Source: Ephemerocybe angulata (lineage: Eukaryota > Basidiomycota > Agaricomycetes > Agaricales > Psathyrellaceae). Taken from it: a stretch of DNA of 64,000 nt. The stretch spans positions 1 to 64,000 of the forward strand of contig JAACJK010000003.1 in assembly GCA_013368325.1 (NCBI GenBank), written 5' to 3'. The stretch's first letter is position 1. Every line of letters begins with the position of its first letter. A program made the translations under genes and the position numbers. Under the pieces are notes generated by a model. It ran no database searches, was not told where the DNA came from, and saw only the letters and a list, made by a program, of their open reading frames with translations. Positions 3,377-60,181 of the stretch are shown one piece after another.

Positions 3377-3381
3377 CTTCG

Positions 3382-4301: not shown

Positions 4302-4315
4302 AGTTATGAGCCCCG
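4302..4315 (+). promoter_or_regulatory. Primer-binding site of copia C
   Basis: AGTTATGAGCCCCG, identical to the site of copia A, immediately follows the 5' LTR and is complementary to the anticodon arm of initiator tRNA-Met. Its position also fixes the LTR end at 4301. Confidence 0.8.
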
Positions 4316-4330
4316 AGAGGCCCTGGGTAT

Positions 4331-4561: not shown

Positions 4562-4611
4562 ATCTTTGATTGGAGATCAATTGCTCATTTGATTCATTTC
4601 AGATCTTCAAT

Positions 4612-5420
4612 ATGTCCAACACCCTCACCACTCTCGTCTCTGTCTTCGACAGCACCAACTACTCTACCTGGTCCGACCTGATGTGGGCGTACCTGGAGTT
4701 CCAAGGACTCTCGCTCCACGTCGACGGCACACTCCCACGTCCTACTGCCGCCGCATCGTCTCCAACATCCGAGGAGCTTGAAGCCCAAGCCAAATGGGAC
4801 ATGCAAGACAAGCAAGCTCGTGGCGCCATCATCCTGAGGTTAACCCCTTCTGTCCGAAGTGTGGTTATTCCCAAGAGACGTCGAAAGAAGTCTGGGACCT
4901 CCTCAAGGAAACATATGGTACTCCTGGAATCACCGTGATCTACGCGGATTTCAAGAAACTTGTGTCATTCAGATTCAGTGGCAACGATCCTCGCCCTGAA
5001 TTGGCCAAGTTCCAGGAGTTTCTGGATAAGCTGACCGCCAACAAAGTCAGCTTCGACCCCTTCATCCAGACCATGATGTTGATCAACGCTCTTCCTGCCA
5101 AATACGACCATCTCAACGCCCTCATCCTTCAAAGTCCTCGAGAAAAGCTCAACGTCAAGGACATCGGCGACATGGTCATCGCCGACTTCGAACGCACTCA
5201 GAACATCCACACTGCGAACAAAATGACGGCGATCAAACGGAAGAACAACGATCCTTCTTTCAATCAGCAACGCAACCAGCAGAAACAACAGAACATGCCC
5301 GCGAATAACTCCTCTGGGAACGCCTCTAACCAGGAACCCAAGAATAACTCGCGTGGCAACGCTGGTGGCAAGAAGAAGAAGGAGAAGAAGAAGAACCAAG
5401 CTCTGGCCAAGGTAATTCTC
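4612..5420 (+). pseudogene. gag of copia C (UBN2-type), frameshifted
   Basis: Begins MSNTLTTLVSVFDSTNYSTW at ATG 4612, a typical copia Gag opening. Gag_polypeptide (UBN2-like) sequence runs through ILRLTPSVRSVV, then shifts frame near 4870 and continues with ETSKEVWDLLKETYGT to a lysine-rich stretch near 5385. A second shift near 5410 leads into a histidine-rich segment (HQHHHTHEAHDL). Both shifts are explained by loss of one base from a C run and a G run. It may be functional if these are sequencing errors. Confidence 0.8.
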
Positions 5421-6451
5421 ATCAACATCACCATACCCACGAAGCCCACGATCTGTCCCACATGGCGTCCTCTGCTGTCCTTCTTGGCAACATGTCGTCA
5501 ATCTGGCTCCACACGTCCACAGCCCACTGCGGCCTCTGTCGTCACCATCGGATCTCAGGGATCTGTCGTCCGCAAGGCACCCGTCAATCTGCCTGCCAAG
5601 CTTTCACTCCTGCGACTGGCGACAAGATCACCTCCACCGTCACTCACTCTGTCTATCCAAGCGTCGCTCAGGCCCAAAAGATCTGCGAAGCACTCGATGT
5701 CTCTAAGACCGCTCGCAACTTGAAGGTTCTTGAGGAGATTCCCCTTGCTGATCGTCTCAGCTCTCCTCCACCGGCCAAGCGTGCTAGGAGTGAGTCTCCA
5801 CCTCCCACTCCCATCAAATCTACCATCGTCGACGACGACGACGCTGTCTCACTTGGCGATGAGGATCTTACCGATCAAGATGCGGAAGGATCTCTCTGGG
5901 GTGGAGATGAAGACGCTGCTATGCAGCTTGACGAGATCAACACGGGGTACAACAATGATGCGAATTTGTACGTCCCATCCTCACACCTGACCAAGCATAT
6001 CGCTAACATCTTAGCTGATCCACAGTCTCTTCGATTAAATATGTTGGACTGCAGCGACGATGTATATATGGATGCTTGTATCGCACTTAAATCTATTGCT
6101 TCTCGAATCGATTCTTTGAATCCAGCGATTAATTGTGCTCAGTGTGAGAATCCAGGACTTCAACTCTGGATATTGGACTCAGGTGCTTCGATACACACCA
6201 CTGCGACGATATCGGACTTCCACGATTACCGGATTCTAGACAATGGTCCAAAGATCCGTACCGCTGCTAAAGACAGCATACTCCAAATGAAAGGAGTTGG
6301 ATCGGTATTCGTTGAACACTTTGGGTATGACCCTATAACGGGAAAGCCCGCACCTGTACGATCGCGCATATCTCCAGTATTTCACATCCCCAATCTCGAT
6401 ACAAGACTTCTCTCTATGGGGAACTCTTACAAAGACCTGGATCATACGTGA
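5421..6451 (+). CDS. Aspartic protease segment of copia C
   Basis: Histidine-rich linker, then an acidic stretch with DDDDAVSLGDEDL, then the retroviral-type aspartic protease signature LWILDSGASIHTT (near 6170-6205). In this frame translation ends at a TGA at 6449-6451, but similarity passes into the frame of the downstream polyprotein at a GGGG run near 6420, where LLSMG should continue as ELLQRPGSYV. A one-base loss is the simplest explanation; nothing suggests a programmed shift. Confidence 0.7.
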
Positions 6452-9400
6452 AAGGCAACAAAGATGCGATAGGAATTTACACAGCCTCGCATCATCAACT
6501 GGTTATCTGCCGCCCGCATTCCGTTGACGATAACATCTACTGGTTTCGCACCAAAATCGTTCAACAACATAAACTTGCGGATACCGTGTCGACACTTTAC
6601 AGTGTTGATTATGAAACCATGCATAAACGCTTTGGGCATCCCTCCAAAGAAGTGCTCGAAAGGGCCAGGGGGAGCACAGAGAAGTTCCCAGAAATCTCGA
6701 TTCCTAAGAAAACTCCGATCTGTCGCGGATGCGCAGAAGGGAAGATGCCATCAAAGTCTTACCCTGTTTCGGAAACTCGTGCGGAACAGCCTTTTGAGAA
6801 GATTCATTCAGATCTTAAGAGCTTTCCAACTGAGTCGTACCATCGTTACATGTGGTATGTGTCATTCGTTGACGACTACTCAGGTCACGCCTGGATTACT
6901 CTTTTGAGGAAAAAGGATGACACCCTCCAAGCCGTTTGCAATTTCCTAGCAATGGTAGAAAACAATTATGGCTCCAGCGTCAAACAATGGATGTCAGATG
7001 GAGGGGGAGAATACAAGTCGCACGAATTCGACAATCTCCTCAAGGAGAAAGGAATCAAGATCCTCCAGAGCGTTCCACACGTGCCCCAACAGAATGGAAG
7101 GGCAGAACGCTTCAACAGGACAATTATGGATAAGGCTCAGGCCATGCGACTCGATGCCTGTCTACCTCAGTCCTGGTGGAAATTTGCTGTGCTACATGCG
7201 GTGCACCTCTATAACAGGACACCGATGAAGCGTCTCAAATGGAAAACTCCATATGAGTTAGTACATAAAAGGAAACCGGATGTATCCCACTTCCGTGTTT
7301 TTGGCTGTGGCGCCTACGTCTATCTTCCACCTGATGTACGAGTTAATAAACTGGCTCCGAAATCAGAGATGATGATCTTTTTAGGTTATCCGGAAGGAAT
7401 GAAGGGTTATCTCTTCATGCGCCAACCCAACAATGTCCTCTTCAAGTCGACAACAGCCACCTTTGATGAGACATACTTTCCCAAGTGTAAAGACATGGTA
7501 CCACGCGGTACAACCAGAGAAGGCGAACCTTCGGGATCGCAAGATCAGAATAACATTCCTCCCGAGGAAGATGGAGATAATGATGATATGCCTCATCCTC
7601 CATCACCCCCTATACCTAAAAGGGATAACGGCCCCAATCGTGACGACGATCAAGGCCCGCATCCGCCGCAACCTCTGCCTCCGGTGAACGAGGAACCTCA
7701 ACAACGTGGTAGACGGCGTGCTCCACGAGGTGATCCTCCGGCGCCTACTAGAGCGTCAAGCAGACTGCGGAAAGTTCCCACCAAGCCTGGCAACTCATAC
7801 GGGGAGCGGAACCCCGTTGAATCTGAGAAAATTGGTCAAACGGAGTGGAAAAAACTTGTCGGCGACACCGAGACTAGGCCATCCGGTAGTTCGCAACAGA
7901 AAGGAAAGGAAAAGGTTCCCGGACCAATTCCTGCTCCACCACCTCCTCCAGAAGTCGAAGCATCGTCTTCTGATGAAAGTGACTCTGATGAATCATCATC
8001 TGACCAAGCAGATGCCATGTGGAACGACTACGGTACCTATATTGCAAAATTGGTCCGTGAAGGGGGAGTAGAGTTTATGGAACATTTGCTGTCAAAGGCA
8101 ATTCCTGCAGACTTACCTCAAAAAGCACCACGCGAGTGGACATTCCGCGATATCATGCGCTTACCAAAGCCTGAAAGGGAAGAATGGCTTAAGGCCTGCA
8201 ATGAGGAGATCGAGGCTCTCTTCAAACGCGGTGTTCTTTCGCTAACTGATCTACCTGCTGGCCAAAAGGCTATAGCAAACAGATGGGTTTTCGACATCAA
8301 ATCAGATGGTCGGAAACGTGCCCGATTAGTTGCCAAAGGTTTCTCACAAGTTGAGGGCATAGACTTCAACGAGATCTTCTCACCCGTCGTACGATATGAA
8401 TCAGTTCGTCTCCTTTTGGCACTTGCTGCATTGGAGGGCTGGGATATTACCGCTGTCGACGTCAAAACTGCCTTTCTATATGGCAAGTTAGAAGAGGAGA
8501 TTTACATGCTCCAACCTGAAGGCTTCATTATCAAAGGGCAGGCGCGTAAAGTCTATCGACTACATCGTGCCATATACGGTCTAAAGCAAGCCTCCAACGC
8601 ATGGTACAAGGAGCTTGTAGGGTCAATGAAACTCTTAGGATTTCAGCGACTATCGACCGATACTGGGATTTTCATGTTCCAGGACTCTCACGGTGAATTC
8701 GTCATCGTGGTCGCTTATGTCGACGATCTTCTATTCATGGGACCAAAACCCAACCTCGTTGCGTCCAAGAAGAATCTCTTTATGGACAAATGGGAATGTA
8801 GGGACTTAGGCGAACCGTCCGAATTCCTCCGGATGCGTATCCAACGCAAGGATGGCAAGATCTTACTCGATCAAACCAACTATCTCAAAGCTGTCCTTGA
8901 GCGCTTCGGAATGATGGACTGCCGAGTTGCTCCCACACCCATGGTTGAAGGCTATCGCCCTCTACCCAACGAAGGTCCTGTTGACCCACAACTGCGACAC
9001 CGCTTCCAGTCTGTGATTGGATCACTGCTGTACCTCATGCTAGGCACACGCCCTGATATTGCATATGCTGTCACCAAGCTATCGCAATTTGCAGCAAATC
9101 TGACACAAGAGCATCTCAACCGAGCGCTCTACATCTGCAAATACCTCCGAGGCACCATGGACTATTCATTGGTTCTTGATGGACGTTCCGGCAAGGGACT
9201 TATTGCCTATTCGGATTCTGATCACGCTGCTGATCTGATCAAGCGTCGATCTGTGACTGGATATGTGGTGAAAATGGCTAACGCCGCTGTCAGTTGGACG
9301 TCACATGCTCAGAAGACTGTTGCTCTCTCATCTACAGAAGCAGAATACATGGCACTGTCAGATTGCAGTCGTCAAGTTATGTGGATGAAGCACATGTTCA

Positions 9401-9669
9401 AAGAGCTGAAGATGAACGTTGGCAAAGTTCCAATCTGTTCCGACAACAATGGAGCTATATTCATTGGCTCCAACCCCATTCAGGAAAGGCGCATCAAACA
9501 TATCGATGTTCGCTATCATTACATCCGTGAATGTGTGGAAGACGGCAACGTGGAAATTCTTCGAGTTGACACCTCTGAGAACACTGCCGATACTATGACA
9601 AAGCCACTTGGTCGCGTCAAGTTTGTCGAGTTCAGGGAACAACTAGGACTTGAGTTTTACTCGCCTTAG
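6448..9669 (+). CDS. Integrase-reverse transcriptase-RNase H polyprotein of copia C
   Basis: An unbroken 1073-codon frame. In order: the integrase HHCC finger (MHKRFGH ... CRGC), the DDE core (IHSDLKSF, SDGGGEY, NGRAERFNRT), a proline and acid-rich linker (about residues 375-540), copia reverse transcriptase (KARLVAKGFSQ class motif, IYGLKQASNAWY and the catalytic box YVDDLLFMG) and RNase H (YSDSDHAAD, SSTEAEYMAL, KHIDVRYHYIRE). All catalytic residues are present. The real polyprotein begins further upstream; the first Met here is at 6448. Confidence 0.9.
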   Translation: MKGNKDAIGIYTASHHQLVICRPHSVDDNIYWFRTKIVQQHKLADTVSTLYSVDYETMHKRFGHPSKEVLERARGSTEKFPEISIPKKTPICRGCAEGKMPSKSYPVSETRAEQPFEKIHSDLKSFPTESYHRYMWYVSFVDDYSGHAWITLLRKKDDTLQAVCNFLAMVENNYGSSVKQWMSDGGGEYKSHEFDNLLKEKGIKILQSVPHVPQQNGRAERFNRTIMDKAQAMRLDACLPQSWWKFAVLHAVHLYNRTPMKRLKWKTPYELVHKRKPDVSHFRVFGCGAYVYLPPDVRVNKLAPKSEMMIFLGYPEGMKGYLFMRQPNNVLFKSTTATFDETYFPKCKDMVPRGTTREGEPSGSQDQNNIPPEEDGDNDDMPHPPSPPIPKRDNGPNRDDDQGPHPPQPLPPVNEEPQQRGRRRAPRGDPPAPTRASSRLRKVPTKPGNSYGERNPVESEKIGQTEWKKLVGDTETRPSGSSQQKGKEKVPGPIPAPPPPPEVEASSSDESDSDESSSDQADAMWNDYGTYIAKLVREGGVEFMEHLLSKAIPADLPQKAPREWTFRDIMRLPKPEREEWLKACNEEIEALFKRGVLSLTDLPAGQKAIANRWVFDIKSDGRKRARLVAKGFSQVEGIDFNEIFSPVVRYESVRLLLALAALEGWDITAVDVKTAFLYGKLEEEIYMLQPEGFIIKGQARKVYRLHRAIYGLKQASNAWYKELVGSMKLLGFQRLSTDTGIFMFQDSHGEFVIVVAYVDDLLFMGPKPNLVASKKNLFMDKWECRDLGEPSEFLRMRIQRKDGKILLDQTNYLKAVLERFGMMDCRVAPTPMVEGYRPLPNEGPVDPQLRHRFQSVIGSLLYLMLGTRPDIAYAVTKLSQFAANLTQEHLNRALYICKYLRGTMDYSLVLDGRSGKGLIAYSDSDHAADLIKRRSVTGYVVKMANAAVSWTSHAQKTVALSSTEAEYMALSDCSRQVMWMKHMFKELKMNVGKVPICSDNNGAIFIGSNPIQERRIKHIDVRYHYIRECVEDGNVEILRVDTSENTADTMTKPLGRVKFVEFREQLGLEFYSP

Positions 9670-9711
9670 GTCCGCTTAGCGATCTCTGAGAGATGCACTT
9701 AGCGAGGGGAG

Positions 9712-10068
9712 TGTTGAACTTATCTTATCTTATCTTATCTCTGATTAGATTAGATTAGTATCTAGAACATTCTTTACTTTTCTATCACTCCATTCCTTCT
9801 CTCCATTCTTATTGATATGCTGTATGGACTGACATCATAGCTTACTCGTTGCTTACTCGTACCTACACAGCATTCCTCGTCACACCTCTATTGTTCTCTC
9901 TGTGACTCGTCACGCTCTCTACATGTATAAATACCCTGTAGTTAGACCTCAATCTATCATCGACTTTACCAGTCATCTCAGTAGTCACTTAGTTAGCCTC
10001 TTAGCTAGTCTCTCTCGGTAAGTCTAGTTAGCCTTAGCCGCTGCGCTTAGTGTAGTGCTACTTCTATA
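9712..10068 (+). repeat. 3' LTR of copia C
   Basis: 357-bp copy preceded by a purine-rich tract (GCGAGGGGAG, 9702-9711) that should serve as polypurine primer. It ends TTCTATA and is followed by the target duplicate CCCGA. Confidence 0.92.
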
Positions 10069-10492
10069 CCCGACAGATAGATCCCGACGCCGCCCGGGCG
10101 GCGGGGCCAGCGCCGGCGCGCTGTGCTGGCGTCCTCACCCTTGCCTGAGCATAAAGAGGCAAAGGCAACGGAGCCACCATGCTGCTTACTCTTGGGACCA
10201 CGGCACTGGTATAAGGATTTAGTTTGAGGCCACTTTATAAGGTCAGCGGGACTGCACGATTCAGGGGATGGTTTCTCAGGTGGGCGCGGAGGGTATATTG
10301 ATGGGGTTTTGATGGGGAAAATGGTGGGAACAGGCGCCGGGACACCGCAAAGCAACCTGACAAGGATAGCGCAACCTGATAAGGGTGTTGCAGCCTTATC
10401 GGGCCTGCCGCGGCCTTACATGATGCATTGTAAGCGGCCGGCATGCCTTATTAGGCTACGGGCCTTGTAAGGCTGTTTTCGGATTTCCGACA

Positions 10493-10598
10493 TTGTCTAC
10501 AAGTCTCTCGCCTTGATTCTCCTCGTCTTTTCTCTCTCTCTCTCGTCCTCTGTCCTAAGTTAGGGTTAGCAGCGCACCAGACCGGTCGTTCGCTGACA
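10493..10598 (+). repeat. 5' LTR of gypsy B, remaining part
   Basis: Resumes at the duplicated TT with GTCTACAAGTCTCTCGCC and ends GTTCGCTGACA, identical to the end of the 3' LTR at 16792. This proves that element D was inserted into the LTR. Confidence 0.92.
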
Positions 10599-10600
10599 AT

Positions 10601-10611
10601 AGCTAAAGACT
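10601..10611 (+). promoter_or_regulatory. Self-primer binding site of gypsy B
   Basis: AGCTAAAGACT starts two bases after the 5' LTR and is the exact reverse complement of the predicted RNA 5' end AGTCTTTAGCT (3757-3767). No TGG-type tRNA 3'-end complement is present here. An 11-nt self-primer of this kind is established for fission yeast Tf1 and related chromodomain elements. Confidence 0.7.
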
Positions 10612-11168
10612 TCTTCTTCGTCGCCGATCACCTCGATCCTCGACACCGTCACCACTCTCAACAAACCATCAAACCTTGCCCGTGCTTAGGCGTGTGTTCC
10701 CTTATCCCATTTTCACATTATTCTCTTTTATCCCAAGCAACGCCCCTCTGTAGGAGGCAGCACCTTGGAGAGCGCGAGACTTTAGGTCTTAAGCACGTAG
10801 CGTAGAAGCCCCACTGTGAGAGGCCTAGACTTCTGATCTTCCCCGTTCGTTGTGATCTTCGATAACGGGAAGCTAAGAACCTGGTAACCGGTACTCAGAG
10901 CGATCAAGAGCTACGGCTCGGGCTTAGTTTACAAATTCCCCTTTTTACCCCTTTTCTCCTGCCCAATTAGGCCCTTTGTAGTTTGTCAACGGTCACTCTA
11001 GTCTACGTAGACACATTCCGTAAGAGCCGCCCCCTCGGAGATAGCAACTCGATCTCCACGACCTCAAGCAAATCGCATTGCGTAGACTGTACGGTATATC
11101 CTGCAGCCTGACGCATAGGATCGGACCGAGTATCCACACAAGCAACCCCCTATCCCACATCACCTACC

Positions 11169-12320
11169 ATGGAAGCCCTCCAAGCCGCCTTAACCACCCT
11201 GGCAGGGACTATGACCAATCTTGGAAGTATTGTCGCCTCCTTCGCAACAACCTTCGAACGAAACTCTGCCGAACTCTCCACCGCTGCAAGCAACCTTGCT
11301 CTAGCCTCCGACGAACAGACCGGCCTCGCCAAAGAGCAGACCAAACTCGCTGCAGAACTTGCCAAGCACCGAGCCAATGCTGCGCTCAAGAAACTGAAAC
11401 CCGACCCTCCGAAAGAATTCAATGGAGCTCCTGAAAGAGCAGGAGGCTTCATCGCTGAACTAGAAATGTACTATGACATCATGGACGTCGACGACGCGAA
11501 GCAACGGATCATTTTCGCCCTTTCCAAGATCAAAGGAGGAACCAACGACATGGCCAGTCACTGGGCGGACAGCCAGAGAACTTTCATCAAGAACCACGAA
11601 CCGACAGCCGATGAACCAACCTACTTCAAGAACTGGAAGCAATTCGTCGTTACGTTCAACAGCCACTTCGTCATCCAGAACGTCTCAGAAGCCGCCATCG
11701 ACAAGATGCACACCCTGGTCCAAGGCAGCTCCACCTGCGAAGAGTACACTATCCTCTTCCAGGGGTACTCGACTCAGTCTGGATATAATGAACCGGCCAT
11801 GCTTGCCGAATACAAGCGAGGACTGAACAAGGCACTCAGGAACAAGATCTATGGATTGATCCCAATGCCTATGACACTGGACGATTGGGCCAAGAAGGCA
11901 TGCACCCTGGACAGACAGTTCCGCCTATCAAAAGGGGAACGAAACAATGAACAGACCACCCAAAGGAGATGGACTCCAAGGGAGAACAATCGACCCACGC
12001 ACTACGCCACAACCCCGGCTCGCGACCCCAACGCCATGGACATAGATCACAATTGCTCCCCTCTCATCTGCTACACTTGTGGGAAACCTGGTCACCGATC
12101 CGACTCCTGCAGGCAGGCTGTACCTGACGTCAGCTGCGCCTACTGCAAAGCCAAAGGACACAAGATCGCAGACTGCAAGTCTCCCAACAAGAAGCCCTTT
12201 GCTCCATTCACCAAAGACACTACTGCCCCTCCCCAGTACACCCGCGTCAACGACTTCGACCTTTCCGCTATGCCCGAATCCGAGATTGAGGCCCTCAAAG
12301 CCAAGTTGAAGGATTTTTAA
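11169..12320 (+). CDS. Gag of gypsy B
   Basis: An intact 383-residue frame starting at ATG 11169 (CACCATGG context). The N-terminus is helical and alanine-rich, the middle is a retrotransposon Gag domain (about residues 80-270) and the C-terminus has two CCHC zinc knuckles, CYTCGKPGHRSDSC and CAYCKAKGHKIADC, that would bind genomic RNA. Protease and pol follow after a 32-nt gap in another frame, so Gag-Pol synthesis would need reinitiation or a shift. Confidence 0.9.
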   Translation: MEALQAALTTLAGTMTNLGSIVASFATTFERNSAELSTAASNLALASDEQTGLAKEQTKLAAELAKHRANAALKKLKPDPPKEFNGAPERAGGFIAELEMYYDIMDVDDAKQRIIFALSKIKGGTNDMASHWADSQRTFIKNHEPTADEPTYFKNWKQFVVTFNSHFVIQNVSEAAIDKMHTLVQGSSTCEEYTILFQGYSTQSGYNEPAMLAEYKRGLNKALRNKIYGLIPMPMTLDDWAKKACTLDRQFRLSKGERNNEQTTQRRWTPRENNRPTHYATTPARDPNAMDIDHNCSPLICYTCGKPGHRSDSCRQAVPDVSCAYCKAKGHKIADCKSPNKKPFAPFTKDTTAPPQYTRVNDFDLSAMPESEIEALKAKLKDF

Positions 12321-12352
12321 AGGGACCACTCGAACGCCCAAGCGAGCTGGTC

Positions 12353-13309
12353 ATGGACTCTCAGATTCTGATACCCGACGTAATATGCCCCATCCCCAAT
12401 AAATTATATTTCGACGAAGAATCAGAGAACCAGGGCAGATTTAAAGGAAAGAAAGGAAAACCAGGAACGGCAGAATGGGTCGCACAGCGACTTGATGATA
12501 GCCCCGATCGAGCAGTAGGACTTCTTCTTGCATGGACACATCACAAGAAGGTCCGAGAAGTAGGAGATGAACTCATTGCCAAACTCCGAAAACTCACAGA
12601 CACCGAAGTAGTAGAAGCACTGAACGGTCTTGCAACTCCCAAACAATACATAAGGAGTTTAAGGACGGACAGACAGCTTACAGCCAACATTGTCGCAAGC
12701 ACGCGCGATGATAAGCGAAGCTTCTCTATCGAAGGTCTTATCGATTGTGGGTCTACCGGAAGTTGTATCGATGCTGCATTCGTCAAAGAAGAAGGGATCA
12801 ACACGCGGCAGCTACCCCTTCCTATACCAGTCTATAACGCTGATGGAAGTCCAAACAACAACGGACCCATTACCGAAGTAGTGGAACTCTTCATCAAAAT
12901 CAAGGACCACACGGAACGCATTGAGCTAGCTGTTTCGAACCTTGACAAGTCGAAGATCTTCCTAGGAATGGACTGGCTGGAGAAGCACAACCCCTCTATC
13001 GATTGGCAGAAGAAAGAGATCTTATTCAACCGATGCCCCCTTGAATGTACGCCGCTCATAACTGGTGACCCCGAATCAGACGAGATCAAATGGGAAGAGA
13101 TCGAGGTCGGAGATCGACTGCTAGCCATCGATATCCAAGGAGAAATCAAGATCAGGGCTTTCCAAACCACTGCCTCTAAAATTGCCGAAACCAAACACAA
13201 GGCAACCAAAGAGCGCACATTTGAAGAAGTAGTCCCAAAATGCTATCATGGCTTCAAGGACGTCTTCTCAAAGGAAGCCTTTGATGAACTCCCTCCAAGG
13301 CGAGCATGA
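12353..13309 (+). CDS. Protease domain of gypsy B Pol, ended by a premature TGA
   Basis: The retropepsin signature appears as LIDCGSTGSCIDAAF with the flap-side FLGMDWL about 70 residues later. The frame ends at TGA 13307-13309 in the conserved stretch before reverse transcriptase (ELPPRRA then DHAIEL), where related elements have Trp; the frame simply continues after it. One G-to-A change explains the stop. The start at ATG 12353 is the first Met after the gag stop. Confidence 0.85.
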   Translation: MDSQILIPDVICPIPNKLYFDEESENQGRFKGKKGKPGTAEWVAQRLDDSPDRAVGLLLAWTHHKKVREVGDELIAKLRKLTDTEVVEALNGLATPKQYIRSLRTDRQLTANIVASTRDDKRSFSIEGLIDCGSTGSCIDAAFVKEEGINTRQLPLPIPVYNADGSPNNNGPITEVVELFIKIKDHTERIELAVSNLDKSKIFLGMDWLEKHNPSIDWQKKEILFNRCPLECTPLITGDPESDEIKWEEIEVGDRLLAIDIQGEIKIRAFQTTASKIAETKHKATKERTFEEVVPKCYHGFKDVFSKEAFDELPPRRA

Positions 13310-14989
13310 GATCATGCGATCGAACTCATACCCGGAGCGGAAGTAATGGACAGTCGAATCTATCCCCTGAACCCAGAAGAGCAGAGGCAACTAGATGCCT
13401 TCCTGGAAGAAAACCTCAAATCAGGAAGGATCAGACCATCGAAGTCACCGATGGGGGCACCCCTCTTCTTCGTCAAAAAGAAAGACGGTACTCTACGACC
13501 TGTCCAAGACTACAGACGGCTGAATGAGATTACGATCACCAATCGATATCCCCTTCCACTCATCCAAGAACTCATCGACAAACTCCGAGGAGCGCGGTAC
13601 TATTCCAAGATCGACATCCGATGGGGTTTCAATAATGTCCGAATCAAAGAAGGAGATGAATGGAAAGCAGCCTTCCGCACTAACCGTGGGCTGTTTGAAC
13701 CCCTCGTCATGTTCTTCGGTCTCAAGAACTCACCCGCCACATTCCAGACCATGATGAACGCCCTCTTCAGAGATCTCATCAATGATGGACACGTTGTCAT
13801 CTACATGGACGACATCCTGATCTTCACAGACACTCTGGAGGAACATTGGAAACTAGTCACCAAAGTTCTGGAAAGGCTACGGCGATACAAGCTATTTGCC
13901 AAGCCTGACAAGTGCTCCTTTGAACAAACGGAAGTCGAATACCTTGGAGTCATCGTCTCCCACAACAAAGTTCGCATGGATCCAGAAAAGGTCAAAGCCG
14001 TCAGAGACTGGCCAGCTCCGACATCCGTCAAAGGAGTCCAGCAGTTCTTGGGATTCGCCAACTTCTACCGAAGATTCATCGAAGGGTTTGGAGGACTAGC
14101 GAGACCGCTCTCGGGACTCACGGGAAAGAAGGAATGGGAGTGGGGAAAGGAGCAAGAGGAAGCCTTCAAGGAGATAAAGCGGAGAATCACGACAGCACCT
14201 GTACTTACCATGCCCAACGACAAAGGGAAATTCCGAATCGAATGTGATGCATCAGACTTCGCCATCGGTGCCATCCTATCACAGCAACAGCTAGATGGGA
14301 AATGGAAACCAATTGCATTCTTGTCGCATGCCCTTAACCCAACGGAGCGGAACTACGAGATCTACGATAAGGAACTACTCGCCATCATGACTGCGCTATC
14401 CGAATGGAGACAATACCTACTTGGAGCTGAGGAGATCTTCGAATGTCACACGGACCACAAGAACCTTAGCTACTTTAGGAAGCCTCAGAAGCTCAACCGG
14501 AGACAAGCGAGATGGACCACTGAGATGCAGGACTACAACTTCACGCTCCATCACCGACCCGGGAGGACCATGGCCAAGGCGGATGCCCTGTCCAGACGAG
14601 ATGGCCATGACAGAGGAGAACAGGATAATGAAAACGTCACGGTCCTGAAATCCGAGTGGTTCCGAGCGCTTTCCATTGAAACAGACCAAGACATCATGCG
14701 ACGGATCTTGAAGGTGTGCAGGAATAGGGACAAGTCGGTAGAAAAAGCACTCTCACAGAAAGAAGATGGATGGGAAGAGACAGAAGATGGCATCATCACC
14801 TGGAAAGGACGGATTTACGTACCAGTTGACAAGAAGCTACGGGAAGAAATCATCAGACAACACCATGATGCCCCCACCGCTGGACACCCAGGACAGTACA
14901 AAACCCGAGAACTCATCACACGAAACTACTGGTGGCCAAAGATCCAGGACTCAGTTCGACGATATGTAGAAGGATGTGAAGCCTGTTAA
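13310..14989 (+). pseudogene. Reverse transcriptase-RNase H of gypsy B Pol
   Basis: Same frame as the protease. Contains RT motifs FFVKKKDGTLRPVQDYRRLN, YSKIDI, MFFGLKNSPATFQTMM and the catalytic YMDDILIF, then an RNase H-like domain (IECDASDFAIGAIL, DKELLAI, CHTDHKNL) and the start of the integrase HHCC finger (HPGQYKTRELI ... CEAC). It ends at TAA 14987-14989 after CEAC, where CAA (Gln) is expected; the frame is open again immediately after. The first in-frame Met after the upstream TGA is at 13346. Confidence 0.88.
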
Positions 14990-16300
14990 AGGACGAAACC
15001 CAAACGTACCTCCCCAGCAGCCCCATTGGTCCCTAACGAGATCCCATCCAGACCTTGGGAGATCATCTCTATCGATATGATCGGCCCATTACCCGAGTCC
15101 AATGGAAGCAACGCCATACTTGTGATTGTCGACAGATTCTCCAAAAAGATCGAAGCCATACCCACAACCACCGAGCTGATGTCTAAAGGAGTAGCCGAAC
15201 TATACAGGGACTATGTTTTCCGACACCACGGTCTTCCCCAAAAGGTCATCAGCGATCGAGGAACCCAGTTCGTCTCCAACTTCATGACAGATCTACTTCT
15301 TCTCCTGGGAATAAAGCACAACCGATCCACTGCGTTCCACCCACAAACCGATGGACAAACAGAGCGAATCAATCAAGAGCTTGAACAGTACCTCCGACTC
15401 TTCATCAGCGAACGACAGGATGATTGGGCAGAATGGCTCCCACTAGCAGTCTTCTCATACAATGACAAGGTCCACTCAGCGACAGGCTACTCCCCATTCT
15501 TCCTCAACTCCGGACAGCACCCTTGGAAAGGAAAAGAGGCCCAGACACGTGTAAAATCAGAACCTGCGCAACAATTCGCCGAGCGGATGAAACAAGTACA
15601 TGAGGATGCACGCTCCAGCCTCAAGGCAGCAGCTGAGAAGATGAAGGAGAACTATGACCGACATCGCCGGGATGCCATAAACTACAAACCCGGAGACAAG
15701 GTCTACCTCGAAGGAACCAACATCTCGATCACCCGTCCTTCTCGGAAACTTTTGGATAAACGCTATGGTCCATTCCCCATTGTCAAGAAGATTGGGCAAT
15801 CTGCTTACCAACTCCAACTCCCTCCGAAGTGGAAATCCATCCACCCTGTCTTTAACGAATCACTCCTAACTCCGTTCAAAAAACCCGAATTCCCCTCTCA
15901 ACAGAAACCACCGCCACCACCACCTGTTGACGAAACAGAGGAACGATACGAAGTTGAAGCCATCCACGACTCAAAGTTCATCAGAGGGAAGCTCATTACC
16001 TCGTGGAGTGGGCTGGATACCCTGAGGAAGAACGAACATGGGAACCGGAACGGAACGTTGATAATGCAGCGGATGCTATAGCTGACTTCCACCGAAAACA
16101 CCCGAGTGCACCAAGACAGATCCAACCACACCAACTCCGCTTTATCCCTTACGAGAACCTTACCGAGAACAAGAGAGCGATCTTTGACTGGACAGATGGG
16201 AAACTAAAGGAAATCCGACACTACCGAGCGAGGGGGAGAGAAGCTGAAATCGTCGAGGACGACGAAGCTAAAGGGGGGGTGATGTTACGACCTGGATGAT
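14990..16300 (+). pseudogene. Integrase and broken chromodomain of gypsy B Pol
   Basis: The DDE integrase core reads ISIDMIGPLP, ISDRGTQFVSNF and HPQTDGQTERINQELEQYL, followed by the GPY/F-type module (KRYGPFPIVKKIG) and a chromodomain that starts [17 protein letters not shown]. Near 15995 one base is missing, so [17 protein letters not shown] continues in the next frame to about 16300. The chromodomain would direct integration to modified chromatin. The final codons overlap the polypurine tract (AAAGGGGGGG) and the 3' LTR. Confidence 0.88.
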
Positions 16301-16792
16301 CTATTTATTCTTTTTCCTTTTCTTTTCCTTTTCTTTTCTTTTTCCTTTATTTCTTGTCTTTCATTTCTCTACTTCTCTATTATTTACAAGACGTGTCTCG
16401 GTCACGTGACACAGCACATGCGATCACATGCACAGGTCACCTGCTACATCACGGGACCGGCACAGCATCAGTCAGCACCTCAGTCAGCATGACATCATAA
16501 TGCACAGCACTCGCACAGCTCTTCGACTCATACATGGTCATTCCTTACATAGCATTCCACAGCTTCTGCACAGTATGTACAGCCTCGTATAGCCATAGTC
16601 ATGTCACGGTCATGAAGCATAGCAGTATATAACCTAGGTAGATCTCACTGTATTTCCCCAGTCTTTAGCTGGTCAATATCACGGCCTTGTCTACAAGTCT
16701 CTCGCCTTGATTCTCCTCGTCTTTTCTCTCTCTCTCTCGTCCTCTGTCCTAAGTTAGGGTTAGCAGCGCACCAGACCGGTCGTTCGCTGACA
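16283..16792 (+). repeat. 3' LTR of gypsy B
   Basis: 510-bp uninterrupted LTR, TGTTACGA to GCTGACA, preceded by a G-rich polypurine tract. It is the reference that shows where element D entered the 5' LTR. Confidence 0.95.
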
Positions 16793-16797
16793 CTTCG

Positions 16798-18708
16798 GCT
16801 GCCGAGCTTTCGTTAACATCGCTCGGAAGGATCGCAAGAACCTCCAATCTCATTGGCTTTGAAACAGGCTACAAAGGATGGAGGTGCTACAATCCTATCA
16901 CGAAGAAGGCACACATCTCACGCGACATCATCTTCACATTCCCTGGTCTCTCGACCACTACGCCGGCACCGGCACACACACCCATTGGCCTTGGGGATAT
17001 CTGGCCTGACCTCGAGGATGAGGACGACGACGCACCGCCTCCTGCACCTCCTGCACCTCCACGAGCACCTCCATCAGACGAGGACTCATCTGACGAGGAC
17101 GACGAGGACGACGAGGATGATGAGGATGATGAGGATGACGAGGATGATGAGGACGATGATGACGAGGACAACAGCGGTGCCCAACAGGCACCACCACATA
17201 CACCTTCCCAAACCATGGACCTGAAAGCTCTCGGCAAGCAAACAGCATCTCGACCACAGTTCCACCCGACTTCACCTACCTCGCCTACACCTAAAGCTGA
17301 GCCACAAAAGTCTACTCCTCCTACATCGCCTGAACGTCCTATCCCTGCTCCCACGTTTCCTGCTCCTCCTCCTTCTGCACCTGCTCCTGTCCCTCGGAAA
17401 CCCATTACCCAGCCAATGGTGGCACAAGGCTCGCGCCCTGTCCGCCAGAAAGTAGTCCCTGATTACTTCAAACTAACTGGGGGTACGAGGCGAACGACCA
17501 AACCAGTTGCACGATGTCAAGGGGGTGAACCGCCAGCGGATCAAGGGGGTGACAAGGATGATGAAAATCCGTTTAATCCGCCACCTCTCACAGCGCAGGA
17601 CTTCGAAGACGAAGACAACGGGGACAACGACAACGTCGACCTTGAAAGAGCTCTATTCGCCACTCCTATCATGCAAGCCCTCATGGACGTCTATGACATA
17701 GGAGAATACATCCCCGCTGATGAAGCTGTGGAAATGGTTCTCATGATGGCCACTGACAAGATGGAACATGCTTTCGGAGCTGCTACACGGCCAGAAGATT
17801 CCCCACGCAGCTGGAAAGAAGCCATGTCTCGACCAGACCATGAGTTCTGGGCTGCTGCATGTCAAACGGAGATGGACGCACTCATCGCCAACGGCACTTG
17901 GGAAATCGTCAGGCTACCAGATGATAGGAAGGCAATTGGCTCTCGATGGGTATTCCTTATCAAGCGCAAGTCCGATGGCACCATCGACCGCTACAAGGCA
18001 CGCCTCGTCGCTAAAGGCTACTCCCAACAACCTGGTGTCGACTATGACCAAATCTTCTCTCCTACTGCTCGTCTCACTGCCCTTCGTACCGCTCTTGCTA
18101 AAGCAGCCATGAACGGGGAATACATCGAGTCCATCGATGTCTCCAACGCATACCTCAACGGCGAGATCGAAGACAAGTACGAGGTCTACATGACTCAACC
18201 TGAGGGTTTTGAAATCAGAGGCCCCAACGGAGCGAAATGGGTCTGCCGCCTCAAGAAGGGTATCTATGGCCTGAAACAGAGCGGACGACTGTGGTATCAG
18301 AAGCTAGCAGCGGAACTCGAACGATTGGGATTCACCCAGATCAAAACAGATCCCAGCTTCTACGTATGGGAAGCCGATGGTATCCGAATCACTCTACCAG
18401 TATTCGTCGATGACATCACCATCATCTCCAAGAGTCAGGACAAGGTCAAATGGCTCAAGGAATCACTCGCCAAGGTCTTCACTCTCAAGGACCTTGGCCC
18501 AACCACCTACCTCCTCGGTATCAAGGTCGATTATGATCGCGAAAACCGCACAGCGGCACACTCCACCTCTCCCAACGCCAGTACATCCTCGATATCCTTA
18601 AACGATTCCGCATGGAAAACTGCACACCAGTCGCAACCCCTATGGATCCAGGCAGTGGCACTAGTCTTGCCAAGTACGATCTCTCCAAGCAGGAGCAACG
18701 TGAGATGA
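16798..18708 (+). pseudogene. Copia A pol, second part: integrase end and reverse transcriptase
   Basis: Resumes exactly where the integrase stopped at 3376 (CRAFVNIARKDRKNL), then shifts frame into LIGFETGYKGWRCYNP, a polyacidic and proline-rich linker (repeated aspartate codons at 17095-17170) and copia RT: KARLVAKGYSQQPGVDYDQ, IYGLKQSGRLWYQKL and the catalytic box FVDDITII. Near 18560 the frame is lost and the continuation (LSQRQYILDILKRF) is in the next frame. Confidence 0.85.
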
Positions 18709-19388
18709 AGACTGTCCCATACATAAACACAGTCGGAGCTCTCATGTACCTTGCCATCGGAACTCGCCCAGACATCGCCTACTCCGTCGCCAAGCTCGCC
18801 CAGTTCAACTCGAACCCTGGTCCAATCCATTGGAAGGCCGTCAAGCATCTGTTTCGCTATCTGAAGGAAACGATGGACTTACGACTCACCTATCGCAATG
18901 AAGGCGAGTCTCTGTCATCAGAACTCTTCCAGGCATATACCGATGCAGATCATGCTGGATGCCTTGACACTCGTCGATCCACCTCTGGATTCCTCATCAA
19001 GATGGGCACAGGCGCTGTTAGCTGGTCTGCCAAGAAGCAGGCAACCGTCGCGGACTCTTCGACAGAGGCCGAATATGTTGCTGCCTCCTCGGCAGGACGC
19101 GAAGTCATTTGGATGCGGTCATTCCTTCGGGAACTTGGGACTACAGTCACAGGTCCTTCACGACTGATGGTCGATAACCAATCTGCTCTCAAGGTGCTTC
19201 GAAACCCCGAACACCACAGCAGGATGAAGCACATCGACATCAAGATGCATTGGATACGAGAGGTTATTAAGCGCGGCGAAATTGAGGTCCATTTCCTTCC
19301 TACCAACGACATGATCGCCGACATCTTCACCAAACCACTCCCCAAACCCGCTGTACAGCGTCACCGTCTCGCTCTTGGTCTTGAGTAA
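18612..19388 (+). pseudogene. Copia A RNase H
   Basis: The continuation of the polyprotein in the shifted frame: GTRPDIAYSVAKLAQFN, then RNase H with YTDADHAGCLDTRRSTSGF, DSSTEAEYVAASSAGREVIW and MKHIDIKMHWIRE. It ends at TAA 19386-19388, 28 bp before the 3' LTR. Catalytic residues are kept but the domain is separated from RT by a frameshift. Confidence 0.85.
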
Positions 19389-19416
19389 TCTTCCGTGACA
19401 TTGCATTGAGGGGGTG

Positions 19417-19819
19417 TGTTGAAGTACAATGCACATGTCTCCATGGCTCGCCCATTGTTCTCTTCATCTTCACACGGGTGCTGCCTCTTTCAAACTTTTC
19501 TATTGTTCTAATGCTTCTTTGTTCTATATATATCCACGATCACATTGTTCATTCATTCCATCGTTTCACATATATCACACAGCATTGTTCTCACTTCTAT
19601 TGTTCCATATTCGTACGTACTTTATTGTTCTCCCGATATGGACCGTCTATTGTTCCACACAGTATATAGTCTACACTGCAAGTGGGTAGTTCCCTTATCG
19701 AACTATCTCCCACTTGCAGGTGCGTCATGCTGTATTTCTCTTTATCTAACTTAACTAATATATCGAACTATCTCCCACTTGCAGTGGCTTCAACGACTTA
19801 TAAACTTAGCAGTTTATCA
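19417..19819 (+). repeat. 3' LTR of copia A
   Basis: 403 bp, preceded by the polypurine tract GAGGGGGTG and followed by the target duplicate AGTGG (19820-19824). Confidence 0.95.
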
Positions 19820-37443: not shown

Positions 37444-38622
37444 GAGCGTCAATTGAACCGTAACCATGGAGCACATGTACATTGGTGATAAAAGGAGCCA
37501 GTGTCTCCTCTACTAGGTAAGCCAATCTTAATGAGATAAAGCTGCAGGTGCACCGACATCCCAAATCCTAATGGTGTTATAGTCTCCCCCAGATGCAACA
37601 CGTCTTCCATCCGGTGAGAATGCAACTGACCGAATAGTATCGTTGTGCCCCTCCAAAACTCTCTGCACCTCGCCTGTCGATGCGTCCCAAACTCGCACCG
37701 TCTTGTCGTACGACCCAGAGACAACCTTTCCACCATCCCGCGAGATAGCAATCGACGTAACAAGATATGTATGCCCCTCCATGTTCCTCATTACATCACC
37801 TGTCGAGAGATCCCAGATCCTCACCGTGTGGTCGTACGACCCAGAGACAATCCGTGTCCCATCTCCTGAAAAAGCAACGGACGAAACCGCATTGGGATGC
37901 CCTCGCAGCACCTTATGCAGGCTGCATGTTGTCAATGATGCATCCCATACCCTTAAGGTCGTATCCCACGCCCCAGATGCAATCCACTTTCCATCCTGCG
38001 AGAATGCGACTGAATGGACTCCTCCAGTGTGTCCTTTCAGGACACTCTGCACAACGCCTGTCGACCTCTCCCATACCCGGACCGTGTTATCGCTTGACCC
38101 AGAGCAAATCCTTGACCCATCCCAGGAGAGCGCAACTGTCTTGACAGGGCGACTGTGGCCCTCGAGCACCCGTTGCACTTTTCCTGTCCTTGCATCCCAT
38201 ATCCTCACTGTTTTGTCGTAGGACCCGGAGACGATCCAAGAACCGTCGCCCGAGATCGCAACGGATGTGCATTTGCGACTGTGCCCCTCCAAGACTTTCT
38301 GTACCTGACCTGTTGACGCATCCCAGACCCGTATCGTATTATCTTTGGACCCAGAGACAATCTTCGTTCCATCCCGAGAGAACACCACGGACATAACACC
38401 ACCGTCATGTCCATGCAGTGGAGGGGGCGGTGGGTGGAGATCTCGTGGGACACCAGACCCGGGTTCTTCATAAGGCGCGGCGGGGTCTCCAGCCGGCACA
38501 ACAGGGCCCTCAGCCACATCGACTCCAGGTCCTTCAGTCGACGGAATGAGTTGCGGAAGTGAGGACTTCTTGAAACTTGGCGCGGTCTGTCCGAAGATGG
38601 CTTCAACACCCTTCCTCCATTC

Positions 38623-38898
38623 TGTTGGAAGATTATGTAACCCGCTTTACAAATCAACCTTCGGTCATACAGACAAGCTACGCTACACTGCTTACACAGC
38701 GGGAGCTCACAGCAGTCTACGACTTAATTGGGTCTAACACCAATTAGCACTCTGGGTTTACAAGACCGGATAGCTCAGTGGTTAGAGCGTTCCCCTAGAT
38801 TGGACAGGTCCTTGGTTCAAACCCAAGTCTGGTCATTTCTTTTCCAAAGGTCACTCATCGTAACGAGTTGCACGATAATCATTGTGTAATTCTTATCA
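38623..38898 (+). repeat. TRIM LTR, left copy
   Basis: 276 bp, TGTTGGAAG to TTCTTATCA. It contains a small inverted repeat (AATTGG...CCAATT near 38732-38751) and the tRNA-like segment. Confidence 0.93.
38764..38834 (+). tRNA. tRNA-like sequence in the left LTR (pseudo-tRNA)
   Basis: 71 nt that fold as acceptor stem GACCGGA/TCTGGTC (one wobble), D-arm GCTC/GAGC and T-arm CTTGG-TTCAAAC-CCAAG. The A box TAGCTCAGTGG and B box GGTTCAAACCC are near consensus. TTTT follows at 38840-38843 as a possible Pol III stop. The anticodon stem pairs poorly (about 3 of 5), so it is probably not a working tRNA and no isotype is assigned. Confidence 0.65.
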
Positions 38899-38950
38899 TG
38901 GTAGCAGCAACTACGTTGTGGGAATTGATTTGTACCGGCTTAAGGGGGTA
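38899..38950 (+). promoter_or_regulatory. TRIM internal region: primer-binding site and polypurine tract
   Basis: TGGTAGCAGCAAC directly after the left LTR begins with the TGG expected for pairing with a tRNA CCA end; it resembles the initiator-Met complement TGGTAGCGCC but is not identical. TAAGGGGGTA ends at the right LTR and fits a polypurine tract. Only about 30 bp separate them. Confidence 0.75.
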
Positions 38951-39226
38951 TGTTGGAAGATTATGTAACCCGCTTTACAAATCAACCTTCGGTCATACAG
39001 ACAAGCTACGCTACACTGCTTACACAGCGGGAGCTCACAGCAGTCTACGACTTAATTGGGTCTAACACCAATTAGCACTCTGGGTTTACAAGACCGGATA
39101 GCTCAGTGGTTAGAGCGTTCCCCTAGATTGGACAGGTCCTTGGTTCAAACCCAAGTCTGGTCATTTCTTTTCCAAAGGTCACTCATCGTAACGAGTTGCA
39201 CGATAATCATTGTGTAATTCTTATCA
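38951..39226 (+). repeat. TRIM LTR, right copy
   Basis: 276 bp, identical to the left copy, followed by the target duplicate CATTC. Confidence 0.93.
39092..39162 (+). tRNA. tRNA-like sequence in the right LTR (pseudo-tRNA)
   Basis: Identical to 38764-38834, with the same A box, B box and T4 run. If Pol III used it, transcription would begin near the middle of the LTR and stop before its end. Confidence 0.65.
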
Positions 39227-40184
39227 CATTCGCGTTGGGCTGATTCTTCCTGAAGCTCAAGTCGTTGGAGCACGGCCGAGTGGAAGTTGGTCATCTCTTT
39301 GGACAGAGCGAGCGAGATCTGCGATAGATAGAACGAATCGATGACCGGAGCCCAGTCCTTGGAATGTACAACCATCCCGGGGTGGACGGGGTAGCCATCG
39401 AGACCTTCCAGGAACACTGCGTTATTGCCGAGCTTCCCTTCCCAGCTATCCTCCAGCCCGTCCCGCATGGCTCCAAGGGAAGTGTAAATGGAACTCTGGA
39501 GAGCTCGGAAGTTCTCTAGCTCTTTCGTAAACCATTCGGACTCCGGGGAGAGCCACTCGTCCAGCTCCCGCTCCATCCCTTGTACAGTGCGCTTCAACTT
39601 CTCTATCTCCGTCGCTGCCAGTTCCACTTGCTCGCATCCCTTTTGATAGTCTCCTTCGGTCGTCGCCATCCAACTCTCCGCGTCTGTGAGTTGGGCTTGC
39701 GCCTGCTTAAGCCTCACCGCGAGCCGTTGCTTCTTCCCTTCAACTGCTCTCGGGGTCCCCAACAACTGAAGCCCGTCTAACTCCGCGGTAAGAGACCGCT
39801 CCTGCTCCTCAAGCGTATTTTTCTCTTGTCGGAGTCTAGTGTACTCCTCCACCAACGCGTTCACGTTCTCCAGCTCCTCTGAAAATCGGCTTTCCGCATT
39901 CTTGAGTTCGGCGGAAGCAACTTCGACCTCCTGGCGGTTGGCATCACACTCCTGTGCAACGTCCAACGCCTCCTTTTCGAGATCAGTAATCATCGAGAGT
40001 ACATGAGCCGAGAAATTGTCGATCGTATCCAAGAGTCGTTGTCGCCGAGTGCGCCGGGTATGGGGAGCCTCCTTTGGGCCAATGGACGCTATCCGGCCAG
40101 CAGTCGGATAACGTCCACTCTTTGGGCCTATGGTCGCATCGTCGCTTCCATCCTTTGGACCCAGTACGCCCATGGAATCTGTTG

Positions 40185-40488
40185 TGGTGCTTGCCACAGG
40201 AATAATTGGAATCTCGAACCGAGACTATGCTTGCTTCTAAGAGCTTTATTAATCCTCCAGGCGTACAAGTGGCCCAACTGCTGTGTGGAGAATAAGTAGA
40301 GCCGATTGGGTTCACGATTTAAATTGTGTCCTGACTCACAGGAAAACTTCGAAGAACAGTCCCGGAAATGTTTAAGCACCCAGTGAGGATTCGCCAGAGT
40401 GTGCAAGCTCTTCCTACTCCTGACAAGGAGAAAGATCTGAGAAAGCAATATACGAAGTGAAGGAAGAAAGAGAGTTGAGATAAGTAAG
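40185..40488. repeat. LTR-like fragment truncating paralogue d
   Basis: TGTGGTGCTTGCCACAGGAAT followed by GAACCGAGACTATGC is shared in diverged form with 54191-54250. The left edge coincides with loss of paralogue d coding sequence. The far end is not defined because the hAT element starts at 40489. Confidence 0.45.
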
Positions 40489-52682: not shown

Positions 52683-52932
52683 CAAGAAGGAAAGGCAAAC
52701 ATTACAATTGGTTGACGTCCAAGTGGCCCCAACAGCAGTAGAGCACAGGCGCACCTAGGGGAAGGTCTGTGCGATGGGCCGTGGCGTCGTCGTCTTCGTC
52801 GTTGTAGGGGGCGGGATGCTGGCACTCTTGTATCTTCATAAGCTACGGAGGTGGGCTGCGTAAGAAGTAAGGCCAAGATAGATGTCTGAGAAGTGCTGCT
52901 GGGAAGCAGTCAACGCGCGCTTCTTAGTAGCC

Positions 52933-52944
52933 GGCGCTTATTTT
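52933..52944 (+). repeat. Unit-end motif inside the duplicated arm
   Basis: GGCGCTTATTTT, the same core as the ends of the WD40 units; its mate in the other arm is 59909-59920. It shows that the motif is not restricted to WD40 genes. Confidence 0.5.
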
Positions 52945-53037
52945 GAAACGAAAGGGACTGGAAGTTTCATACCCTAAGAACAGAGAGAAAGTACAATTGA
53001 TTTGACCCCAGCTTATTAGAGACGTGGCACTGTCGCA

Positions 53038-53419
53038 TTACAACGGTGCTGGTGTGGTTGTGACCGCTGTTATCGTCGTCGCAGCTGCGGTTGGCGCACA
53101 CTGTGCATACCCTAGGGAGTGGAAGGAAAATATTCAATGAAACGGGCAGACACAGTCAAGTTGGATTACAGCTCACAGGAGTTTATGGTAGAGAAGTACA
53201 GATCCGTGCTGAATAGACCAAGAAGATCGGGAGTTGGCAATGATCTGCTTGGCGGATATCCGACGCTCACCTTACGCACCGAGTCCCCCCAATCAAGCCC
53301 TGACCTCCACCTACGCACAATTATAAGCATCACCCACTTTTACTCAAAGATCAAAAACTTACACTGCCCAAAGGTCTTTACTGGCTCTACAGAACTGGGG
53401 ATGGGGCTGGTGGTTCCAC
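53038..53419 (-). pseudogene. 5'-truncated copy of the CBM1 secreted-protein gene
   Basis: The last part of exon 1 and exons 2-4 of the gene at 59133 can be read on the minus strand with the same splice sites and an open frame: GQCGGQGLIGGTRCVS, TDLYFSTINSWYAQC and a threonine-rich tail to TAA. The signal peptide and the cysteine-rich N-terminal half are missing, cut at the duplication edge. The third CBM1 cysteine position is Phe. Confidence 0.75.
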
Positions 53420-59132: not shown

Positions 59133-59791
59133 ATGAGTCCAATCGCAAGACTCTTCACTATCTCTGGCTACATTTTGGTCCTTACCCAGGCCAGCAGTGT
59201 GTCCGCCGAGGACACCATCACACCGCCCCCCGCTACGACCACACCGACGACGCCGTCTTTTCCCACCACATTGACATGCACCCAAGGCGGGCCTGTGCCG
59301 CACTGCTGCTCGGGCACATCGACGGCGTGGACGTCGACGCGGTATAACGTCTGCCCCTCCTTCTTTTGCGTCAAGGACGGTGTTATCGCCTCGCAATGTG
59401 GAACCACCAGCCCCGGGCCCATCCCCAACCCTGTAGAGCCGGTCAAGACTCTTGGGCAATGTATGTTTCTGATCTTTCAAGAAAGTGGATGAGGCTCATG
59501 ATTGTGCATAGGTGGAGGTCAGGGCTGGATTGGGGGCACTCAGTGCGTAAGGTAAGCGCCTCATCTCATGGATCTGCTGAGTAGAACATTGCCAACTCCC
59601 GATCTTCTTGGTATATTTAGCACGGATCTGTACCGCTCTGCCATGAACTCCTGTGAGCTGTAATCCAACTTGACTGGGTCTACCCGTTTCATTGAATATT
59701 TTCCTTCCACTCTCTAGGGTATGCACAGTGTGTGCCAACCGCAGCTGCGACGACGATACCAGCGGTCACAATCACACCAGTGCCGTTGTAG
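59133..59791 (+). CDS. Small secreted cysteine-rich protein with C-terminal CBM1
   Basis: Four exons (59133-59460, 59512-59551, 59621-59652, 59718-59791) give 157 residues. A signal peptide (ISGYILVLTQASSVSA end region) is followed by a threonine-proline linker, a six-cysteine module (CTQGGPVPHCC ... NVCPSFFCVKD ... QCG), a second linker and a fungal cellulose-binding module: QCGGQGWIGGTQCVS ... NSWYAQC. The usual third CBM1 cysteine is Arg here. It is probably extracellular and attached to cellulose; no catalytic domain is present. Confidence 0.82.
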
Positions 59792-60181
59792 TGCGACAGT
59801 ACCACGATACCGCAAGACTTCTTTAATATGCTGGGGCCAAATCAATTGTAATTTCTCTCTGTTGTTAGGGTATGAACTTCCAGTCCCTTTCACAAAGACA
59901 GGTGTTTCAAAATAAGCGCCGGCTACTAAGAAGCGCGCGTTGACTGCTTCCCAGGAGCGCCTTCCACGCATGCTACCCCTTCACACAAGGTCCACTCACC
60001 TTGAGGTCAAGGCTGGAGCTCTTCACTTCGGAATAATACATCTATCTTGGGCTACTTCTTGCGCAGCCCACCTCCGTAGCTTGTGAAGTCTCGGACAGAC
60101 CTTCCCCTAGTGCGCCTGTGCCCTACTGCTTTTGGGGCCACTTGGATGTCAACGAATTGTAATGTTTGCCTTTCCTTCTTG
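59398..60181 (+). repeat. Inverted duplication, right arm
   Basis: Matches 52683-53419 in reverse complement, from exon 1 of the CBM1 gene through its 3' flank, which includes CAAAATAAGCGCCGGCTAC and the segment GCAGCCCACCTCCGTAGCTT. This arm belongs to the complete gene, so it is likely the source copy. About 6 kb with the chitin synthase gene lies between the arms. Confidence 0.88.

Follow-up and report, generated by a model that had tools for sequence, protein, structure and literature searches.

The window, a 64,000-nucleotide stretch of Ephemerocybe angulata contig JAACJK010000003.1, carries seven or more coiled-coil/WD40-type genes between positions 21221 and 52450, arranged as a tandem array and distributed over both strands. 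One of these genes (37528–40197, minus strand) is interrupted by a small LTR retroelement at 38623–39226, which lies antisense to it. Upstream of the array is a retroelement nest (705–19819), in which a Copia element, Copia A, with the target site duplication (TSD) AGTGG contains a Gypsy-type element (LTR pieces at 3382–3789 and 16283–16792, gag and RT ORFs at 11169–14989) and a further Copia element, Copia C (3962–10068, TSD CCCGA). Downstream, a chitin synthase ORF, in keeping with a fungal source of the DNA, is flanked by inverted repeat copies (52683–53405 and 59418–60181) with 84–93% identity.

The small element has a total size of 604 bp (276 + 52 + 276). Its plus-strand LTRs (38623–38898 and 38951–39226; TGTTGG...TTATCA) are 100% identical over 276 bp, and the interior delimited by sequence and LTR alignment (38899–38950) is non-coding. 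Both priming signals are present, at the ends of this interior: a 14-nt primer-binding site (PBS, 38899–38912), which complements the 3′ end of the host initiator tRNA-Met including CCA, and the polypurine tract (PPT) AAGGGGG (38942–38948), read directly from the sequence. The duplicated target CATTC flanks the element on the left (38618–38622) and on the right (39227–39231), as indicated by the sequence itself, paralogue comparison and a check of the duplications at all copies. With only 52 bp between the LTRs, there is no room for genes of the enzymes needed for transposition; the element is non-autonomous and has to borrow its machinery.

Each LTR contains a tRNA-like unit of 72 nt (38764–38835 in the 5′ LTR, 39092–39163 in the 3′ LTR, both plus strand), on which the tRNA calls of ARAGORN and Rfam agree (Rfam score 49.6 bits, gathering threshold 29). 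A motif scan located an A box, TAGCTCAGTGG, at 38771–38781 and a B box, GGTTCAAACCC, at 38814–38824 of the 5′ LTR. A run of four T residues (T4), a putative weak Pol III terminator, follows at 38840–38843; its counterpart in the 3′ LTR (39168–39171) is the proposed 3′ end of the genomic RNA. An earlier reading of the letters alone, the first-pass annotation, had given the identical LTRs, the 52-bp interior and the CATTC duplication with exact coordinates. It had also correctly reported an A box, a B box and a T4 stop, found here in the LTR unit and just after it, while the tRNA-shaped segment that it described as a 71-mer is present but one nucleotide longer.

Rejoining the flanks at the empty site restored a single stop-to-stop open frame of 695 codons, whereas the insertion leaves the gene split into two such frames, 359 and 372 codons long, that include LTR letters. 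The paralogous ORFs (n = 6) encode 624–716 aa, and a Pfam WD40 match was found in both paralogues scanned. The tandem array supplies natural empty sites for the insertion: all six paralogous stretches spanning it have a single CATTC and no element.

Searching the genome (58.7 Mb in 232 contigs, with all copy counts being lower bounds) with the 276-bp LTR demonstrated that the sequence is not unique to the window, as the first-pass annotation had expected. This family, family 1, comprises at least seven LTRs at no fewer than five genomic sites, namely two full elements (the window copy and C134:407232-407835) and three solo LTRs (on C117, C77 and C67). A perfect 5-bp duplication accompanies each of these five insertions, so the expectation of target duplications elsewhere also held. 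At LTR positions 14 and 224, the window copy has variants that its two LTRs share and that none of the five other family-1 LTRs carries, which fits the copying of both LTRs from one RNA.

Three extra LTR matches, with alignments confined to the tRNA-like part and its borders, revealed family 2, represented by solo LTRs of 254–262 bp on C143, C147 and C67 and by a degraded copy at C134:459193-459345. Family 3 was found through a tRNA call in the flank of the C147 copy. It includes a solo LTR of 215 bp (C147:349879-350093), fragments on C140 and a full element of 522 bp (C218:436159-436680) with two identical 218-bp LTRs, an 86-bp interior and the TSD CAACG. The LTRs of the three families align only around the tRNA-like unit. 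Perfect 5-bp duplications were observed in all 10 insertions examined (5, 3 and 2 in families 1, 2 and 3), a set comprising every listed insertion except the degraded family-2 copy and, in family 3, the fragments on C140. A pattern built on the 3′ half of the unit (up to 3 mismatches) matched 11 places, corresponding to seven family-1 and four family-2 LTRs, with no match for the control; it missed family 3, so more diverged families may exist. No sign of targeting near tRNA genes was seen, as ARAGORN (no introns) reported none besides the LTR units in the ~1.5 kb flanks of family-1 and family-2 copies.

Paired LTRs, PBS, PPT, 5-bp duplications, dispersed copies, solo LTRs and empty paralogous sites are established. 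The repeated copies with their duplications and the empty paralogous sites place the element well outside chance expectation; it is real. The anatomy, the dispersed copies and the 5-bp duplications likewise support the textbook TRIM with PBS and PPT proposed by the first-pass annotation.

An Rfam search of positions 38400–39450 (E up to 5) listed tRNA and no 5S rRNA. With one representative per family (n = 3), the A- and B-box columns were identical at 19 of 22 positions versus 24 of 52 elsewhere in the unit (Fisher’s test, P = 0.0017). Over seven units, 94.6% of cells in the acceptor, D and T stems were paired, compared to 14.5–50% in slid controls, and 6 pairs were altered on both sides. The 7 differences within family 3 include double-sided changes in two T-stem pairs (P = 0.007). 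Between families, stem covariation could predate capture, if different tRNA genes were taken, and the relatedness of the units together with possibly different donors weakens the stem-pairing evidence. Of the six units examined, five retained 3 of 5 anticodon-stem pairs and one retained 2 of 5. Single-sequence fold stability was not unusual for one family-1 and three family-2 units (z = −1.19, −1.00, −0.29 and +0.44).

The isotype of the unit varied between calls. ARAGORN assigned the family-1 unit to Ser(AGA), yet it has no long variable arm; the three family-2 units gave Ser(GGA), undetermined and no call, and family 3 gave Ser(TGA). Host tRNAs were sampled for comparison (63 of 2171 candidates scored and 30 retained, plus the initiator genes), and within this sample the closest to the family-1 unit was Thr(CGT), with 72% identity. 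The family-2 unit reached 65% with Thr(CGT), no better than with a Lys(TTT) tRNA on contig C3 from the same sample. Fungal Helenus units, discussed below, were aligned with tRNA-Thr(CGT) in the published description (PMC10886601). Judged by its sequence, the unit appears to be a decayed tRNA gene, in which the A and B boxes and the acceptor and T stems have been kept and the anticodon stem is decaying. With its anticodon stem reduced to two or three pairs out of five and a Ser call lacking the long variable arm, it does not appear to be a functional tRNA. LTRs of this kind are listed as tRNA-Ser genes by a tRNA predictor, here ARAGORN.

TRIMs with tRNA-like LTRs were described in 2024 under the name Helenus from rust fungi, Agaricomycetes, animals and one plant (Kojima 2024, PMC10886601), and the description is repeated in a meeting report (PMC12859917). 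Among the matches listed, from literature consisting mostly of papers outside subscription, no further descriptions of tRNA-bearing TRIMs were found. The first-pass annotation gave no known tRNA version in a basidiomycete, a view that is not supported (PMC10886601): the kind is already described, and the present families add to it. The elements studied here share with Helenus the LTR pair with a tRNA-like A/B-box unit, the PBS, the PPT and the 5-bp duplications known from fungal members, as well as the occurrence of several families per genome, solo LTRs and initiator-Met primers. Helenus elements consist of two LTRs around a short non-coding interior and measure under about 1 kb; the window copy measures 604 bp and the family-3 element 522 bp. 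In most Helenus families, too, the unit is not a functional tRNA. Two differences are apparent. At least five insertions were counted here, against between 11 and 426 tRNA predictions for each of the rust families tabulated (PMC10886601, Table 2), and the family-1 PBS lies at the primer 3′ end, a mode reported for only several fungal families (PMC10886601). The window element is almost certainly a Helenus-type TRIM, i.e., a non-autonomous LTR retrotransposon. This membership, of which we are highly confident, was assigned from described features.

The parallel with the plant TRIM Cassandra drawn by the first-pass annotation is apt, as Cassandra is an analogous TRIM with a Pol III unit in its LTRs, including small-RNA-gene sequence, promoter and terminator (PMC7215508). 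In contrast, Cassandra occurs in plants and contains 5S rRNA instead of tRNA sequence, and no 5S rRNA was found here. The Ajax TRIM of nemerteans also combines a small-RNA-gene promoter in the LTRs with 5-bp duplications, but it is an animal element with a partial 5S rRNA. The present data add one more fungal genome for Helenus, with three coexisting families; new here are two primer modes in one genome, the preservation of stems versus anticodon decay, and the T4 at +5.

Taken as a whole, the locus is best explained as a Helenus-type TRIM with a tRNA-derived Pol III promoter and a helper acting in trans, a reading to which we assign a probability of about 0.9. Under the proposed mechanism, TFIIIC and Pol III would bind the A and B boxes of the 5′ LTR, and transcription would start near the first base of the unit. 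The T4 located 5 nt past the unit would act as a weak terminator, where some polymerases would stop and release a short tRNA-like RNA. The remaining polymerases would continue for ~328 nt until halted by the T4 of the 3′ LTR. In the resulting full-length RNA, the tRNA-like unit would be present at both ends and would act as R during strand transfer. Minus-strand synthesis would be primed at 38899–38912 by the 3′ end of the initiator tRNA-Met and plus-strand synthesis by the PPT, with an autonomous, probably Copia, element supplying RT and integrase in trans. Such an RNA would differ from that of Cassandra, which has an 18-bp terminal repeat (PMC10886601), in that the whole unit is the proposed repeat.

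The T4 starts 5 nt past the unit in all six LTRs examined (one from family 1, three from family 2 and two from family 3). The probability of a T4 arising by chance within 13 nt 3′ of the family-1 unit is ~0.046; families 1 and 2 have a common flank after the unit, so their T4s are not independent. In family 2, a further T4 lies right at the LTR terminus. Other T4 runs between the units were not significantly rare in family 1 (1 observed versus 1.47 expected, P = 0.55) or family 3 (1 versus 0.99, P = 0.75), and their scarcity was not counted in favour of Pol III. The main text of the Helenus description uses the word “terminator” once, for Cassandra, and “TTTT” nowhere (PMC10886601).

In vitro, a T4 terminator of budding yeast has essentially no function by itself but reaches moderate efficiency when an RNA structure adjoins it (PMC9278858), and Pol III passes many tRNA terminators, typically by 50–200 nt (PMC4937561). 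Weak T4 runs strengthened by RNA structure, together with the known read-through, underlie the proposal of a leaky first T4 and a stop at the second. The required read-through of ~328 nt exceeds the typical yeast range, which counts against the model. Judging from motifs and conservation, Pol III transcription of the TRIM from the unit is quite probable, while the leaky-T4 step with the unit as R may apply with slightly less than even odds. If each T4 stops a fraction p of polymerases, the calculated yield of full-length RNA is p(1−p), with a maximum at p = 0.5. Such an optimum would explain the recurrence, across the three families, of a T4 rather than a longer run at +5, along with the retention of the acceptor/T helix beside a decayed anticodon arm. 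The unit could accordingly be viewed as a tuned promoter and terminator defining R, with the acceptor stem and the T4 giving intermediate strength, although we regard this extension as rather speculative. How a TRIM can make a genome-length Pol III RNA despite a terminator in its own LTR thereby becomes a concrete, testable model.

The main competing explanation is that the TRIM RNA is made by Pol II from a U3 promoter, the tRNA-like part being a passenger or a packaging or structural element. The T4 right after the unit of the 5′ LTR could impede a full-length Pol III RNA, and in the Helenus description canonical TRIMs are termed “TRIMp2” and Pol III use in Helenus is presented as unproven (PMC10886601). 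Against Pol II, the A and B boxes rank with the best conserved parts of three families that align only around the unit. No TATAWA or AATAAA was found on the plus strand of the six LTRs scanned, which is weak evidence because fungal promoters often lack signals of this type. Transcription by Pol II is considered unlikely.

The 3′ end of the host initiator tRNA-Met was identical at all five places found with the initiator pattern (control, 0), and the match length of the family-1 PBS was reached by none of 2000 shuffled interiors. Introns of 16–20 nt follow the anticodon in the three initiator tRNA-Met genes examined for them (of L069–L073). Run with its defaults, ARAGORN gave no Met call at any of the five places (one Arg, one Tyr and three without a call); allowing introns produced Met(CAT) at three, and Met(CAT) was also listed for the other two. 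An elongator-type T-loop pattern, tried as a primer guess, was rejected, as it matched one place without a tRNA call and its control also matched one. The family-3 PBS is a 15-nt complement of positions 25–39 of the mature initiator tRNA-Met, in the anticodon region and across the splice point. Together with the 3′-end PBS of family 1, this places both initiator-Met primer modes, at the 3′ end and at the anticodon region of the same tRNA, in one genome. Both modes, along with 5-bp duplications, are known from fungal Helenus (PMC10886601).

The helper providing RT and integrase is likely a Copia element. The Copia elements at 705–19819 and 3962–10068 have 14 nt of the family-3 PBS in common with it, and family 1 has the same start (TGTTG) and end (TTATCA) as Copia A, with a GGGGG tract in both. 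An autonomous partner of family 1 would be recognized by the PBS TGGTAGCAGC adjoining an LTR ending in TTATCA. RVT_2 (Copia) matches numbered 123. In the genome search, the 14-mer was limited to the two full copies. The 12-mer CATGGTAGCAGC occurred at 9 places, 2 of them in family-1 copies, and all seven others were unlike LTR junctions (by eye, no shared repeats); with 18 places for a reversed-pattern control, this pattern is at background. A Gypsy helper would be compatible with the lack of a family-1 helper among the PBS matches and with the Gypsy-type element present in the window. However, the PBS sequence shared by family 3 with both window Copia elements, the ends and tract shared by family 1 with Copia A, and the resemblance of fungal Helenus PBSs to those of Copia (PMC10886601) make Gypsy an improbable source.

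The first-pass annotation had also considered a captured gene, and a functional tRNA gene spread by the element would account for the ARAGORN and Rfam calls with a score above the gathering threshold. This is very unlikely and was rejected: the anticodon stem has lost two or three of its five pairs in the six units examined, the Ser call for family 1 comes without a long variable arm and with Thr(CGT) as the closest sampled host tRNA (72%), and the isotype or anticodon reading differs across units and families. Nor was the unit found as an ordinary tRNA gene outside the repeat, since all 11 matches to its 3′ half lie inside family-1 or family-2 LTRs. A SINE or a tandem duplication is excluded with near certainty by the element anatomy; tRNA-derived SINEs (SINE2) are likewise short and non-autonomous with a tRNA-derived A/B-box promoter, but they are lone units without LTRs, PBS or PPT, mobilised by non-LTR elements through target-primed reverse transcription, whereas here two families have full LTR–PBS–LTR copies, the duplications are constantly 5 bp, solo LTRs have the same ends and the paralogues lack the element.

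At the fungal rate of 1.05 × 10−9 per site per year (used in PMC5689174), 0 differences over 276 bp correspond to a Poisson 95% upper bound of ~5.2 My for the window copy. The two LTR differences of the full C134 copy give ~3.5 My, with an upper bound of ~10.9 My. The “very recent movement” that the first-pass annotation read from the identical LTRs is thus weakly supported; the identity stands, and it bounds the age at about 5 My. On C147, two solo LTRs from different tRNA-bearing families are separated by ~0.9 kb (L017:233-447 and 1348-1601).
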